DNA of 64,000 bases from Thiobacillus denitrificans ATCC 25259 (GTDB lineage Bacteria; Pseudomonadota; Gammaproteobacteria; Burkholderiales; Thiobacillaceae), in the NCBI RefSeq assembly GCF_000012745.1, contig NC_007404.1, forward strand, positions 868,001 through 932,000, in the 5' to 3' direction. Shown here in pieces: positions 12,137-18,728 of the stretch. A program made the translations under genes and the position numbers. The notes below the pieces were generated by a model that saw nothing but the letters and a program-made list of their open reading frames with translations, did not search any database and was not told where the DNA came from. Numbering within the stretch: position 1 is the stretch's first letter; every line of letters begins with the position of its first letter.

Positions 12137-13894
12137 GTGCCCACCTCCACCGCGCCTGCCGTCGTGCCCCGCCTGCTCAAGACGCTGCTGTTGCTGGCGG
12201 CGCTGCACGCGTCGGCGGCGCGCGCGCTCAGCGTCGAGGTGCAGGCGCCCGAGGAGATCGCGGCGCTGCTGCGCGAGCATCTGGAGACCGCCCGCGCGGC
12301 GCGCCTCGGCGAGAAGCCCGATGCTGACGAAATCGCGCGCCTGCAGCGCAAGAGCGAAGAGACGGCGCGCGACCTGCTCGCGACCGAGGGGTATTTTTCT
12401 CCGCGCATCGACAGCGTCGTGACGCCCGTGGGCGACGACTGGCGCGTGTCCTACCGGGTCGAGCCGGGGCCCCGCACGACGGTGCGCCGCGCCGTGCTCC
12501 GCTTCGAAGGCGCGGTCGCGCGCGATGAGGCCCGCGGCCTGCGCGCCCGGCTCGCGCGCGCGTTTGCCGAGAACGCAGGCAAGCCGTTCCGCCAGGCCGA
12601 ATGGGAAGCCGCGAAGCTCGCGGTGCTGCGCCTCCTGCTCGCGAACGCCTACCTCGCCGCCCGCATCGCGACGAGCGAGGCGCGCGTCGACCCCGCGGCG
12701 CGCGCCGCCGATCTCAGCGTCACGATCGACAGCGGACCCGCGTTCCACTACGGCGCCCCCGTCGTCAGCGGAACCGCGCGCTATCCCGAATCGATCGTGC
12801 GCAACCTCAATCCGGCGGCACCCGGCAAGCCCGTGCGCCAGCAGGACCTGCTCGACTACCAGATGGCCCTCGAGGCGAGCGGCTATTTCGCGCAGGCGAC
12901 GGTGCGCGTCGAGCCCGACCCGGCACGCGCGGCGGCGATCCCGATCGAGGTCACGGTCGTCGAGCGTCCGCTCAAGCGCTTCAGCGTCGGCGCGGGGGTG
13001 AGTACCGACACCGGCGCGCGCGTGCAGGCCGCGTGGCTGCATCGCGACATCCTCGACCGCGGCATGCGCCTGCGGCTCGAGTCGCGGCTCGAGACGACGC
13101 GGCAAAGCGGGCTCGCCGAGCTGACCTGGCCGCGCAACACCAAGCGTTACGAACACAGCCTCGGCCTGCAGCTCAGGCAGGAGGAAATCGAAGGCCAGGA
13201 GACGCATGCGACCGTGCTCGCGGCGCGGCGCAATCTGCTGCGCGGCAAGATCGAGACCAACCTGACGCTGCAATACCAGACCGAGGAGCAGTCGGTCGGC
13301 GATGCCCCGGAGGTCCGCAACCAGGCCCTGACCGCGAACTACGCGTGGACCAAGCGCGCGATCGGGCGCGCCTTCTATCCGCGGCGCGGCTACGTCCTCA
13401 GCCTGCAGGGCGGCGGGGCCTCGGAAGCGCTGTTGTCCGACACCAGCTTCGTTCGCCTCTACGGCCGCCATATCCATTACCTGCCGGCCGGTGACCGCGG
13501 CCGCCTCGTGCTGCGCGGCGAATTCGGCAGCGTGCTCGCCGATACGCGCGACGGCATTCCGACCGATTTCCTGTTCCGCGCCGGCGGCGACAACTCGGTG
13601 CGCGGCTACGCCTACCAGAGTCTCGGCGAACCGGTCGACGGCGGCGTCGCCTCGGTGCGCTATCTCGCGACCGGCAGCGTCGAATACAACTATTTCTTCA
13701 CGCGCAACTGGGGCGCGGCGGTCTTCGTCGACGCCGGTGACGCTGCCGACAGCACAGCGGCGCTGTCGCCGGTATTCGGCTACGGCGTCGGCGCCCGCTA
13801 TCGTTCACCGGTGGGTCCGGTCAACGTCGACGTCGCCTACGGCGAGGCGACCGACGAGGTCCGCCTGCATTTCTCGCTCGGGGTGTCGTTTTGA
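12137..13894 (+). CDS. tamA: TamA, outer membrane translocation and assembly factor
   Basis: A 585-residue Omp85-family protein. It starts with a signal peptide (hydrophobic stretch about 12-30), has POTRA-like repeats in the first half, and a membrane beta-barrel in the second half with the conserved RGY segment (within GGDNSVRGYAYQ). It ends in Phe, the usual barrel signature. TamA in the outer membrane and TamB from the inner membrane help insert outer membrane proteins. The frame opens at GTG 12137, with a stop six bases upstream; GTG 12164 is an alternative. Neither has a strong ribosome site. tamB follows with a start overlapping its stop. Confidence 0.9.
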   Translation: MPTSTAPAVVPRLLKTLLLLAALHASAARALSVEVQAPEEIAALLREHLETARAARLGEKPDADEIARLQRKSEETARDLLATEGYFSPRIDSVVTPVGDDWRVSYRVEPGPRTTVRRAVLRFEGAVARDEARGLRARLARAFAENAGKPFRQAEWEAAKLAVLRLLLANAYLAARIATSEARVDPAARAADLSVTIDSGPAFHYGAPVVSGTARYPESIVRNLNPAAPGKPVRQQDLLDYQMALEASGYFAQATVRVEPDPARAAAIPIEVTVVERPLKRFSVGAGVSTDTGARVQAAWLHRDILDRGMRLRLESRLETTRQSGLAELTWPRNTKRYEHSLGLQLRQEEIEGQETHATVLAARRNLLRGKIETNLTLQYQTEEQSVGDAPEVRNQALTANYAWTKRAIGRAFYPRRGYVLSLQGGGASEALLSDTSFVRLYGRHIHYLPAGDRGRLVLRGEFGSVLADTRDGIPTDFLFRAGGDNSVRGYAYQSLGEPVDGGVASVRYLATGSVEYNYFFTRNWGAAVFVDAGDAADSTAALSPVFGYGVGARYRSPVGPVNVDVAYGEATDEVRLHFSLGVSF

Positions 13895-16800
13895 AGCGCG
13901 CTGGCTGGGTGCTCGCGGGTTTGCTCGGACTCCTGGCGCTGCTGCTTGGGGCTGCCGCCACGCTGGCGACGACGGCAACGGGTTTTCGCTGGCTCGCCGA
14001 CGCGGCGAGCGCGCTCTCCGGCGAGCGGCTGAAATTGGAAGGCGTCAGCGGCCATCTCGGCGCACCGATCGCGGTCAAGCGTCTCACACTGGTCACGCAG
14101 TTGAGGCGTATCGAAGCCGAAGACCTTCGCCTGCGCTGGCAGCCGCGTGCCCTATGGGAGCGCCGTCTCGAAGTCGAGCTGCTCGCCGCGCGGGTCGTGC
14201 GCGTCGACGTCCTGCGCGAGGACCCGAGGCCGCCCCAGCTTCCGGCAAGCCTGCGCCTGCCGCTCGACGTGCGCGTGCACGCCTTCGATCTCGGCCGGCT
14301 CGAGATGACGAACGCGGCGTCGATGCAGATCTTCCGTCGCCTCCACGCGCGCCTCGACGGTCGCGGCGACCGCTATCGCGTGTCCGGCGCGCGCGTGCTC
14401 ACGCCCTGGGCCGACGTAACGGGGCGTTTTGAGCTCGGCAAGGACGCGCCATTCGCCCTGCAGGGCAGCTTCGACGCGACCCGCCGCGAGCCGCTGCCGC
14501 TGCATGCGCGGCTGCGCCTGGCCGGCTCGCTCGCTGCGCTGCGCTTCGAGGGCGACGCGACGGCCGAAGGCATGAGCGTGGTCGCCAGCGGCGAGGCGGC
14601 GCCGTTCGCCGAGGTGCGGCTGCGGCGGGTGCTGCTCGCCGGGCAGGGCATCGACCCGCGCCGCCTTGCCCCCGGCGCGCCGACGGCCGACCTTGCCTTT
14701 TCCGGCGTGTTCGAGGGCCGCGCGGGCGAACGGCTGATCGGAACGTTCAGCCTCAGCAACGCGCTCGCCGGGCGCCTCGATCAGGAGCGGCTGCCCTTGG
14801 CCAATCTCAGCGGTGCCGTCTTCGGCGACGTCGCGGCGGCCGACTTCAGGGCGCTGACTGTCGATCTCGGCGCCGCCGGACGGTTCAGCGGCGCGGGGCA
14901 GTGGCGCAACGGCCGCGCCGTGCTCGACCTCGTCAGTCCGCGCGTCGATCTCGCCGCGCTGCACGGCAAGCTCTATCCGACGCGCATGGCGACACGCTTG
15001 CAGTTCGCCGGCGACCTGGCCCGGCAGACGCTCGACGGGACATTCTCCGAGCGCTGGGGCGAAGGCCGCTTCGCGCTCAGCCGCGACGCGGCGCGCCTGC
15101 GTCTCGAGACCCTGCAGTTTCGCGGGCGGGCCGGACAGCTGACCGCGTCGGGCGAAATGCAGTCCGACGCCACGCGCGCGTTCGCCGCCCGCTTCGACGC
15201 CACGCGGATCGACCCCGCGCAATTCGGCAAGCTGCCGCGCGCGCGGCTGAATCTGCGCGGCGCGCTCAGCGGTGCGCTGGCCCCGCAGCCGCGGCTTCTC
15301 GCCGAGTTCACCCTGCCCACGGGGGAGCTCGAAGGCAGCCCGATACGCGGCCATGGGCGCCTGCGTTACGCCGAGGGGCATCTCGCGGACGCCGACATCG
15401 ATCTCGATCTCGCCGGTAACCGCGCAACGTTTACCGGCGCTTATGGCCGCGCCGGGGACCGGCTCGACTGGAACGTCGATGCACCCGACCTCGGGCGGCT
15501 CAAGTTCGGCCTGGACGGGCAGCTGACGAGCCGCGGCAGCGTCGCCGGCGATCCGGCCGCGCCGCAGGTCGAGATGCAACTCGCCGCCCGCGCCTTGCGG
15601 CTGCCCGGCGGCGTCGCGGTCGAGCACGCCGATCTCGCACTCACATTGCAGGCGACCGCGCGCGGCGCCTTCGAGGGCCGGGTCGACGCGCGCGGCGTGC
15701 GCGTCGCCGGGCAGCGCATCGCCACGCTCAGCGCCACGCTCGACGGGCAGCGCGCGGCGCATACGCTGGCGCTCGACGCGTCCTTGCCGCAGGGGCGGCT
15801 CAACGCGACGCTCGCCGGCGGCCTCGGCGCCGACTCGGTCTGGCGCGGTCAGTTGCAGAAGGCCGCGCTGCAGGGCGAATGGCCGATCGTGCTCACGGCG
15901 CCGGCGACGCTCGTGCTCGGCCGCGCGCAGCAACAGGTCGACGGGCTCGTGCTGTCGGTGGCAGGGGGCCGGGTGGCCATCGAGCACTTCAGCCGCCGCG
16001 GCACGCAGCTCGCGAGCCGCGGCAGCGTCGATCGATTTCCGCTCGCGCCGCTGCGCGATCTGCTCGAGGAGGGGCCGCGCTTCACGACCGACCTGCGCTT
16101 TGCCGGCAACTGGAAGCTGCGCGCCGACGAAACGCTCGACGGCACGCTGAGCCTGCGCCGCCAGTCGGGCGATCTGCGGCTCGCCGAGCCTGCGCTGCAG
16201 CTGGGTCTGGAGGCGCTGCAGCTCGATCTCGTCGCCGCCGCGAATCGCGTCGACGCGCGCCTGGCGGTCGAAAGTACGCGCGCCGGCCAGTTGCACGCCA
16301 CGGCGCGTGCGGCACTCGTGCGCGAGGGTGCGGCGTTCACGCTGAACCGCGCCGCGCCGCTGGCGTGGAATGCCCGCTTCGACGTTCCCGATCTGCGCCT
16401 GGCCAAGGCATTTCTTCCGGTCGGCATCCGGCTCGACGCGCACCTCGTCGGTCGACTCGACGGCAGCGGCAGCATCGCCGCACCGCGCATCGACGGCGTC
16501 GTCGACGCGCAGCAGATCCGTTTCGCGATGCCAGAGCAAGGCGTCGCGATCAGCGATGGCACGCTCAGGCTCGCGCTTGCGGGGGATCGCGTGCGCGTGC
16601 AGCAGGGCGAATTGAAAGGCGCCGGCGGGGGCGGGCGCATCCGCGTGAGCGGCGAGGCGCAGCTCAGAAATCCACAGGCGGGGCTTACGCTCGAATTCGA
16701 GAAATTCGCCGCGATTCAGCGCAGCGACAGGCAGGTGATCGTGTCGGGCACCACGCGGCTGGTGATCGATCCGCGTCACCTGGAACTCCGCGGCGAACTG

Positions 16801-17622
16801 ACGGCCGACCGCGCCCGGCTCGAAATGCCCGGGGCGAGCCGGCCGATGTTGTCGGACGACGTCGTCGTGGTCGGCCGGCCGCCGCGCGAAAAGCCCGCCG
16901 CGCAACGGTTTCCGCTCGCGCTCGACCTGCGGCTGCGGCTCGGCAGCGATTTCCTGTTCGACGGCGGGGGGCTCGACGCCCGCCTCGGCGGCGAACTGCG
17001 CGTCTTCACGGTCGACAAGGTCGTGCGCGGCGAGGGCACGATCCGGGTCGAGGAGGGGCGGTATTCGGCCTACGGCCAGACGCTTGCGATCGAGCGCGGC
17101 GTGCTGCGCTTCGTCGGACCGATCGACAACCCGGGGCTTGACGTGCTCGCGGTCCGCGTGACGCCGGCGGTCAAGGTCGGCGTGCAGGTCGGCGGAACCG
17201 TACAGCGCCCGCTCGTCAAGCTGTATTCGGATCCGCCGCTGCCCGACACCGAGAAGCTCGCCTGGCTCGTGCTCGGTCACGGCCTCGAAGGCAGCGGGCA
17301 GGAAGAGTTCGTGCTGATGCAGGTCGCCGCCGGCGCGCTGCTGTCGCAGGCCGAGTCGGTCAACGTGCAGGCGAAGCTCGCCGAGACGCTCGGCATCGAC
17401 ACCTTCGACGTGCGCTCGGGCGGGGGCGAAGACCTCACCAGCACCGTGGTCAGCCTCGGCAAGCGGCTGTCGTCGCGCGCAACCCTCAGCTACGAGCAAA
17501 GCCTCGACGGCCTGCACCAGTTCGTCAAGGTGCTGTACCAGCTGACGCCGCACGTGAGGCTCGAGGCGCAGGCAGGACAGCAAAGCAGTTTCGACGCGTT
17601 TTACACGCTCGAATACGATTAG
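13891..17622 (+). CDS. tamB: TamB, inner-membrane-anchored translocation and assembly protein
   Basis: A 1243-residue protein with one N-terminal membrane anchor (about 4-30), a very long beta-helical middle, and the conserved TamB C-terminal domain ending FDAFYTLEYD. It bridges the periplasm to TamA. The start is the TTG that overlaps the tamA stop (TTGA), so the pair is translationally coupled. The last two bases of its TAG stop are also the first two bases of the inverted repeat of the MITE-like element at 17621. An insertion may therefore have reshaped the gene end, although the C-terminus still looks complete. Confidence 0.92.
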   Translation: MKRAGWVLAGLLGLLALLLGAAATLATTATGFRWLADAASALSGERLKLEGVSGHLGAPIAVKRLTLVTQLRRIEAEDLRLRWQPRALWERRLEVELLAARVVRVDVLREDPRPPQLPASLRLPLDVRVHAFDLGRLEMTNAASMQIFRRLHARLDGRGDRYRVSGARVLTPWADVTGRFELGKDAPFALQGSFDATRREPLPLHARLRLAGSLAALRFEGDATAEGMSVVASGEAAPFAEVRLRRVLLAGQGIDPRRLAPGAPTADLAFSGVFEGRAGERLIGTFSLSNALAGRLDQERLPLANLSGAVFGDVAAADFRALTVDLGAAGRFSGAGQWRNGRAVLDLVSPRVDLAALHGKLYPTRMATRLQFAGDLARQTLDGTFSERWGEGRFALSRDAARLRLETLQFRGRAGQLTASGEMQSDATRAFAARFDATRIDPAQFGKLPRARLNLRGALSGALAPQPRLLAEFTLPTGELEGSPIRGHGRLRYAEGHLADADIDLDLAGNRATFTGAYGRAGDRLDWNVDAPDLGRLKFGLDGQLTSRGSVAGDPAAPQVEMQLAARALRLPGGVAVEHADLALTLQATARGAFEGRVDARGVRVAGQRIATLSATLDGQRAAHTLALDASLPQGRLNATLAGGLGADSVWRGQLQKAALQGEWPIVLTAPATLVLGRAQQQVDGLVLSVAGGRVAIEHFSRRGTQLASRGSVDRFPLAPLRDLLEEGPRFTTDLRFAGNWKLRADETLDGTLSLRRQSGDLRLAEPALQLGLEALQLDLVAAANRVDARLAVESTRAGQLHATARAALVREGAAFTLNRAAPLAWNARFDVPDLRLAKAFLPVGIRLDAHLVGRLDGSGSIAAPRIDGVVDAQQIRFAMPEQGVAISDGTLRLALAGDRVRVQQGELKGAGGGGRIRVSGEAQLRNPQAGLTLEFEKFAAIQRSDRQVIVSGTTRLVIDPRHLELRGELTADRARLEMPGASRPMLSDDVVVVGRPPREKPAAQRFPLALDLRLRLGSDFLFDGGGLDARLGGELRVFTVDKVVRGEGTIRVEEGRYSAYGQTLAIERGVLRFVGPIDNPGLDVLAVRVTPAVKVGVQVGGTVQRPLVKLYSDPPLPDTEKLAWLVLGHGLEGSGQEEFVLMQVAAGALLSQAESVNVQAKLAETLGIDTFDVRSGGGEDLTSTVVSLGKRLSSRATLSYEQSLDGLHQFVKVLYQLTPHVRLEAQAGQQSSFDAFYTLEYD

Positions 17623-17886
17623 GGCCTGTTGACGCTATTTTCACGCCTGCGGCGAGGTCGATTCGGGATGCGGCCCGCGAAGCACGCCGCGCCGCTGTGC
17701 GAGCACAGCAAGCGGACTGCGACAAAAGGATGCGCCCGAATCGGCCCGCCCCTCCGGGTTGCTGCGAGAAAGCGTGCGTGCGGCGTTACGCCGCCTGGCA
17801 AGAGATTTCCCTTGCCAGCGCGACGTGCCCTGCACTCACCGCTTTCTCGCGGCAACGCAGACGCGAAAATAGCGTCAACAGGCCCT
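17621..17886. mobile_element. MITE-like element with 31-bp terminal inverted repeats
   Basis: The ends 17621-17651 and 17856-17886 are inverted copies of each other, with 29 of 31 positions matching and the outer 22 perfect (outer end AGGGCCTGTTGACGCTATTT). The 266-bp interior has no convincing gene. It contains smaller inverted pairs: CGAGAAAGCG/CGCTTTCTCG, and CTGGCAAG/CTTGCCAG around an 8-base loop. No clear target duplication is visible at the borders. This fills most of the gap between tamB and surE; the remaining 17887-17984 shows only a TAGAAT -10-like hexamer and the surE ribosome site. Confidence 0.75.
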
Positions 17887-17984
17887 GGATCGCGCAAGAC
17901 CCGTTGTAGAATCGGGCGCATGTTCGACGCCCGCTTTACGCCATCCCCGTCCCGATCGTCCGTTTCGCGGGGAGGCTGCCGCTG

Positions 17985-18728
17985 ATGCGCATCCTGCTTT
18001 CCAACGACGACGGTTATTTCGCCCCGGGCCTGGCGGCGCTGGCCGAGGCGCTGGCGCCACTCGCCGAGGTCACGGTCGTCGCGCCCGAGCGCGACCGCAG
18101 CGGCGCGTCCAATTCGCTCACGCTCGATCGTCCGCTCATGCTGCGGCAGGCCCCGAGCGGTTTCTATTACGTCAACGGTACGCCGACCGATTGCGTCCAC
18201 CTCGCCGTCACCGGCATGCTCGACCATCTGCCCGACATGGTGATCTCGGGCATCAATCACGGCGCGAACATGGGCGACGACACGATTTATTCGGGCACGG
18301 TCGCCGCGGCGACCGAGGGCTATCTGCTCGGCATCCCGTCGATCGCCGTCTCGCTCGCGAACCACAACGCCCTGTATTTCGACACGGCCGCGCGCGTCGT
18401 CAGCGACCTCGTGCGGCGTCTGCAGAACAATCCGCCGACCGAGCCGACGCTGCTCAATGTCAACGTTCCCGATCGCGCCTGGGATGCGGTCAGGGGGATC
18501 AGCGTGACGCGGCTCGGCAAGCGGCACAAGGCCGAGTCCGTCGTCAAGACGTCCAATCCCCGCGGGCAGACCGTCTACTGGGTCGGCGCGGCCGGCGCCG
18601 CGCAGGACGCCGGCGAGGGCACGGACTTCCATGCCGTCGCCAACGGCTATGTTTCGATCACCCCGCTGCAAATGGACCTCACCCGTTTCAGCCAGATGGA
18701 AAGCGTGACGGCGTGGCTGAAACCCTGA
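17985..18728 (+). CDS. surE: SurE, 5'/3'-nucleotidase
   Basis: A 247-residue stationary-phase survival nucleotidase that hydrolyses nucleoside monophosphates. The N-terminal [10 protein letters not shown] holds the metal-binding Asp8 and Asp9, followed by [10 protein letters not shown] and the [10 protein letters not shown] segment, all standard for SurE. GGGGAGG lies upstream of the ATG. It is first in surE-pcm-nlpD-rpoS, a stress and stationary-phase operon found widely in beta- and gammaproteobacteria. The pcm start lies inside its 3' end. Confidence 0.96.

Follow-up and report, generated by a model that had tools for sequence, protein, structure and literature searches.

A MITE between tamB and surE of Thiobacillus denitrificans that supplies the last base of the tamB stop codon

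Introduction

Among described bacterial miniature inverted-repeat transposable elements (MITEs), MITEPsy1 of Pseudomonas syringae pv. phaseolicola is thought by its authors to have an IS5-family origin and has CTAG or YTAA as its target (PMC3189936). In the accessible part of that paper the term 'stop codon' is used only for premature stops in transposase genes. QMITE2 of Coxiella burnetii is a MITE that, according to the accessible text of a review, lies mainly in gene 3' untranslated regions (PMC10969869), and the term 'stop codon' is absent from that review. A contact between an insertion and a stop codon is on record for ISLxc2/ISLxx4 of Leifsonia xyli, where a stop codon is formed in part by a target duplication of the CTAG type (PMC2516522, accessible sections). 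In searches of the open-access literature, a scope that mostly excludes subscription papers, no title or abstract opening among the matches listed concerned the element described here or MITEs that restore stop codons.

Here we analyze an element in a window of 64,000 nucleotides from T. denitrificans ATCC 25259 (NC_007404.1, positions 868,001 to 932,000), whose genome is a single contig of 2,909,809 bases. All coordinates below are those of the window. A first-pass annotation, made from the sequence of the window, had described a 266-bp MITE-like element at 17621-17886.

Results

The element proved to be a MITE with borders at 17622-17885 (264 bp, no strand assigned), two bases shorter than first described. 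Its left terminal inverted repeat (17622-17651, plus strand), which begins GGGCCTGTTGACGCTATTTTC, and its right one (17856-17885, minus strand) are each 30 bp long. The 31-bp arms reported earlier (17621-17651 and 17856-17886) are present and 94% complementary, with an outermost A/T pair that is part of the TA target duplication. When the 21-nt end was sought across the window at up to three mismatches it was found in two places only, the two ends of the element, and none of 100 shuffled sequences matched. The left copy of the TA duplication (17620-17621, plus strand) doubles as bases 1 and 2 of the tamB stop codon. Because most other copies have TA outside the conserved G on both sides (TA/GGG...CCC/TA in 50 of 97 copies), the element contributes to this TAG only its third base, the G at 17622, and not the last two bases with which it had been credited. 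The position where the right TA would be expected (17886-17887, plus strand) reads TG, so the target duplication of the window copy is imperfect, with TA on the left versus TG on the right.

Inside the ends, which pair as a stem, the body consists of two arms, each about 100 nt long, together with a small hairpin. Arm A (17656-17746, no strand) is closed by pairing of 17656-17667 with 17735-17746 and arm B (17753-17861, no strand) by pairing of 17753-17774 with 17840-17861, in agreement with the further inverted pairs that had been noted in the core. Positions 17758-17856, within arm B, match their own reverse complement at 78%. Folded as single-stranded DNA the element reaches -100.5 kcal/mol versus a shuffle mean of -61.3 (z -10.3), a value equaled by none of 200 shuffles. 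Twelve copies were folded singly, and the same plan with different stem sequences was seen in Acidovorax, Polaromonas, Dyella, a Burkholderia, a Variovorax plasmid and others, while the Reinekea and Amphritea copies gave less complete folds. The inner sequence joins 62 of the relatives' copies with 14 others, and five others stand apart. Since copy lengths vary by single bases, it would appear that no reading frame is kept through the element.

The element lies, as first proposed, between tamB and the surE operon, in the order tamB, element, surE, pcm, a LysM/M23 gene and a sigma-70-type gene. The tamB gene (13891-17622, plus strand, with its start taken from a mechanical ORF listing; Pfam TamB, E 1.5e-59) has GAT as its last codon, followed by the TAG at 17620-17622 that the element completes. 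The surE gene (17985-18728, plus strand) is the first gene downstream of the element, and the downstream genes are identified by Pfam matches to SurE, PCMT, Peptidase_M23 plus LysM, and Sigma70 r1.2-r4. The last of these we take, by gene order, to be rpoS. A -10-like box, TAGAAT, lies outside the element at 17907-17912 (plus strand), intact and 21 bp beyond it. This box is found upstream of surE in all 30 loci that were read, at -84 in 27 of them and at -81, -80 and -78 in one each, the last being the window. The DNA upstream of the box differs, being the element in the window and the end of tamB in the relatives with the shortest gaps. No sigma-70 hexamer pair upstream of surE passed a consensus scan, and an effect of the element on the surE-rpoS promoter, as suggested by the first-pass annotation, is possible.

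A search of the whole genome found no second copy of the element. The proposal to look for more copies was borne out elsewhere, with related DNA in 26 of 60 genomes, own genome included (25 of the 36 belonging to the genus and 1 of the 24 from elsewhere in the order); excluding the own genome, this is 25 of 59 others and 24 of 35 congeners. The end pattern plus TA, at up to three mismatches, is present in 23 of 56 genus genomes, and a related end pattern, at up to two mismatches, in no more than 6 of the 369 genomes sampled from the class, own included. An exact-pattern scan of public genome contigs returned 41 stretches. The 18-nt end had no exact match in viral contigs, and weak matches in nine phage records (E 0.07) were rejected as all lying outside the element. 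One-ended matches in a Desulfovibrio record (L043), a Mariprofundaceae record (L072), a gammaproteobacterial record (L038) and an Azonexaceae record (L065) were likewise set aside, with the second end absent within the length of an insertion sequence (IS) and no match to the transposase query.

The resulting set comprises 97 distinct two-ended elements, 73 from the searched relatives' genomes (among them L025, which belongs to a different genus within the order) and the remaining 24 from named contigs or plasmids (two of which, L064 and L075, are also Thiobacillus). One-ended copies, copies with ends too diverged for the script and duplicates were left out, and 26 of the 98 loci fetched from relatives (L007-L035, L077-L096, L137-L185) gave no kept copy. 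Lengths are 262-268 bp in 62 of the 97 and range overall from 46-bp fused ends to 388 bp; one congener, G031, has 13 distinct copies. Several copies of 46-50 bp have two ends fused back to back, as if the body had been lost (L079 2012-2057, L088 1997-2042, L080 2066-2115, L087 2062-2111 and L062 6060-6109). At eleven insertion sites the flanks of two to four genomes resemble each other (L013/L166, L022/L026/L157, L029/L146/L179/L181 and others), and thus some insertions are probably old and inherited. A partial copy, 73% identical, lies directly upstream of an IS630-family transposase gene on an Azotobacter plasmid (L102 2501-2656).

The site occupied in the window is empty in relatives. surE is present in 53 of the 56 genus genomes, and of the 30 loci read, which include the window, the tamB stop and the following gap were readable in 26 of the 29 others; the element, its end sought at up to two mismatches, is absent between tamB and surE from all 26. 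This is what the first-pass annotation had suggested looking for, and together with the dispersed copies it excludes the contrary case of a block without a second copy that is conserved as an ordinary intergenic region. Where the gap is shortest, tamB of the relatives ends in GAATACGACTGA and the surE box follows 19 nt later. If the element is removed from the window and one flanking TA is kept, what remains, read by eye, is GAATACGATTAG and then a sequence that can be aligned with that of the relatives, starting at the stop codon, and is one base shorter. Codons in the window and in the shortest-gap relatives both give Glu-Tyr-Asp as the end of TamB, and thus the protein end is unchanged by the element. 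The tamB stop of the relatives is TGA in 25 of 26 and TAA in one, and the window lineage must either have started with TAR there or have acquired it. In 10 of the 26 readable relatives (L104-L110, L116, L117, L120) the tamB-surE gap exceeds 200 nt and is filled by other DNA, so this gap has received other inserts; several of the long gaps carry CTTCGCGTCCCTTCGCG-like repeats, and that of L107 carries a clean 25-bp inverted repeat.

We then tabulated target sites and contacts with genes, using gene calls from our own codon model, trained on the window, rather than annotation. Among the 95 copies with long enough flanks, a Y precedes the TA in 75 and an R follows it in 86. The duplicated TA is often changed on one side to CA or TG, and CA/CA and TG/TG pairs are absent from the 97-copy tally. 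Very-short-patch repair at CTAG was considered as the cause of this decay and rejected as too weak, with changed borders at 13 of 74 in the CTAG context versus 6 of 63 in the TTA/TAA context. Of 194 element sides, 101 face a gene running toward the element. On 38 sides, in 37 of the 97 copies, such a gene has its stop exactly at the TA and the first G of the element; the count at every other offset is at most 7, and reading past an element border is seen in only four genes. Since gene breakage in random frames should produce roughly two read-throughs for each exact stop, it would not account for the exact stops. Rebuilding the empty sites for the 38 sides gave TAA or TAG in 33 and TAC in four, with one unreadable at a contig edge. 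Where the rebuilt codon was TAC, the frame had originally continued for another 4 to 106 codons, indicating that there the element shortened the gene.

Merging sites with similar flanks left 82 independent sites, with an exact stop at 30 and an insertion either at a stop or within 11 nt after it at 51. Among the 31 independent exact-stop sides, 14 originally had TAA and 17 TAG; at the 14 with TAA, the G can only be the element's own. As a null we used 464 kb of the own genome, in which 403 YTAR sites divide into 114 coding, 53 at stops, 5 just after stops and 231 elsewhere; by the same codon model this sample is 90% coding. For the 58 independent sites of the relatives, rebuilt and treated with one gene caller throughout, the corresponding division is 24 at stops, 10 near stops, 14 intergenic and 10 coding, versus 25, 7, 93 and 61 for other YTAR in the same loci. 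(Two slightly different methods give 22 or 24 exact stops among the 58.) Stops thus make up 24 of 48 non-coding insertion sites versus 25 of 125 other non-coding YTAR in the same loci (Fisher p 1.5e-4), and stops or the 11 nt downstream make up 34 of 48 versus 32 of 125 (p 7e-8). The stop share also exceeds the 53 of 289 non-coding YTAR in the own genome (p 8e-6). The coding share, 10 of 58 versus 114 of 403 YTAR in the own genome, is not significantly lower (p 0.08). Among the 10 coding cases, 8 have a site other than YTAR, and their borders may have been misjudged.

The consensus of the element ends matched an IS5-type element on a P. aeruginosa plasmid, which has profile matches to DDE_Tnp_1 (E 9e-14) and to DUF4096 of IS4/5 (E 7e-21). 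Relatives of its transposase occur in 2133 plasmid records, with an identity of at least 60% in 13 records. Of ten relatives that were fetched, seven have clear matching ends and TA duplications; matching ends were not found in L221 and L226, and in L225 only the left end was. This gave eight complete IS5-type elements of 805-824 bp with matching ends and a TA duplication on named plasmids (L217-L220, L222-L224 and L097) of Polaromonas JS666, Variovorax SRS16, Cupriavidus, Caballeronia, Paracoccus, Enterobacter and P. aeruginosa. The records assign six of these elements to the IS5 family and list no gene for the other two. In one genome of the class (G200), contig ends carry the same end beside the start of a similar reading frame, as read by eye. 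Target sites of the eight IS are CTAG in seven and TTAG in one, and none of the eight lies exactly at a modeled gene stop, in what is a small sample from plasmids only with near-stop positions left unscored. All eight being at YTAG and none exactly at a stop, the transposase therefore seems to read YTAR rather than stop codons as such.

The own genome gave no DDE_Tnp_1 profile match, with the control positive in 9 of 14 genomes, and a search of the genus yielded no IS with such ends, the transposase query matching 3 of 56 genomes at 28-35% identity. The partner transposase that had been anticipated is thus present as eight plasmid elements of other bacteria and was not found in the own genome or genus. 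The eight-IS group is the likely partner of the MITE. The tamB element is short (264 bp) with 30-bp terminal inverted repeats and has no transposase gene inside. Its family shows target duplication (the window copy having TA/TG) and is dispersed, with one copy in the own genome. Its ends are common to autonomous elements with an IS5-family DDE transposase, so it is classed as a MITE and an IS5-family derivative.

Discussion

Sequence comparison leads us to regard the tamB element as, very probably, a MITE mobilized in trans by an IS5-type DDE transposase, with the tamB copy surviving because it fell on a stop codon. This explanation draws on the copies, their ends, the TA duplication, the empty sites, the IS with matching ends and the stop-codon excess. 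The element would insert beside the TA of a Y-TA-R site and the TA would be duplicated; because the ends start with G, a TAA or TAG hit at its TA would be remade as TAG and the protein would stay the same. Stop-codon insertions would then persist because YTAR is rare inside genes of the own genome and because insertions at or just downstream of a stop would harm neither the protein nor most promoters. The tamB copy would be one such surviving insertion, in a gene that we infer had a TAR stop when it was hit, and the IS group of the eight plasmid elements would be what moved the MITE. With a sole copy found and no such transposase found at home, the tamB copy is probably a stranded, immobile relic. 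Counting against this explanation are the imperfect duplication of the window copy, the lack of an IS with these ends in the genus, the TGA stops of nearly all relatives, the genes shortened at TAC sites and the coding share that is not significantly reduced.

The excess at gene ends could also arise if the transposase or a host factor directed the element to stop codons or gene 3' ends, for which the 51 of 82 independent sites at or just after a stop, versus 58 of 289 non-coding YTAR in the own genome, is the main argument. The eight IS, though a small plasmid sample, point the other way with their CTAG and TTAG targets and not one exact modeled stop, and YTAR itself already avoids coding DNA, with only 114 of 403 sites coding in a sample that is 90% coding. 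Since none of the eight IS lies exactly in a modeled stop codon, survivorship is likelier than active targeting, which we consider unlikely, and the stop excess would reflect selection. A role in which the host keeps the element for its own benefit, for example to insulate tamB from surE or to end transcription, might be read from the very stable fold and from the neighbors, both of which point away from the element in only 3 of 62 oriented copies of at least 200 bp. Yet no terminator-like site was found on the tamB strand between 17560 and 18000, one was found on the opposite strand where shuffles averaged 0.6, all 26 readable relatives do without the element at tamB-surE, and no strand-specific RNA signature was found. 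We thus hold host benefit to be improbable.

That same signature bears on whether the body encodes a structured RNA (sRNA). The two-armed fold recurs across several genera despite different stem sequences, a Burkholderia sRNA in Rfam is matched weakly (14.1 bits versus a cut-off of 80, E 0.25), and a one-strand count in the arms gave 141 G-U versus 48 A-C. This G-U excess was rejected, as it came from the fold of one strand only and was gone in a strand-neutral recount, where 50 aligned copies of the relatives gave 34 G-U versus 34 A-C column pairs (73 versus 67 cells); stems of the element thus lack the strand-specific wobble pairs of a structured RNA gene. Nor is the more stable strand consistent, the plus strand being favored in 24 of 55 copies and in 8 of 19, and the Rfam match was not repeated in a search of nine loci, the window locus included. 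An sRNA is therefore a very remote prospect, and the equal G-U and A-C changes indicate that the body is a DNA palindrome rather than an RNA gene. Replication slippage and a DNA-binding role in transposition are both possible candidates for what keeps it.

The new point here is that stop-codon rebuilding, under our preferred explanation of survival after insertion at YTAR, is a pattern of the whole family. It offers a simple, testable reason why some mobile elements gather at gene ends, namely that target and first base together rebuild the stop codon, and it warns annotators that mobile elements can be the source of a stop codon or of a TAA-to-TAG change. The two-armed DNA palindrome common to the copies also raises the question of a DNA-level function that keeps it. 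More speculatively, stop-codon-proof insertion may be a life-history trait, in which the YTAR target, the TA duplication and the first base G make TAA and TAG stops silent landing sites (TAA becoming TAG). Lineages with this trait might spread more widely in GC-rich genomes than gene-breaking designs, and the conserved foldback might be a second part with a function, such as a signal by which the short element outcompetes the full IS; we offer this idea tentatively, as one that may well prove wrong.

Compared with described systems, the tamB element and the eight IS5-type plasmid elements share left ends of the form GGGC(C/G)TGTT(A/C)ACnCTA, similar right ends, a TA duplication and a YTAG target. 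The IS differ in being 805-824 bp long and filled by a transposase frame, in having no two-armed body and in that none lies exactly in a modeled stop. MITEPsy1 is alike as a bacterial MITE of proposed IS5-family origin with the same kind of target, and differs in its length of 100 nt, its end sequence and its 4-nt duplication, where the group of the tamB element has a TA duplication (PMC3189936, accessible part). The tamB element thus has neither the ends, compared by eye with the published table, nor the duplication of the MITEPsy1 family. QMITE2 differs in its size of about 190 bp and its 7-9-bp direct repeats, and the accessible text of the review does not describe stop-codon repair for it (PMC10969869). 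Finally, in ISLxc2/ISLxx4, as far as the accessible sections describe them, the gene terminated by the host target is the transposase gene of the element itself (PMC2516522), whereas the tamB element ends the host gene instead.
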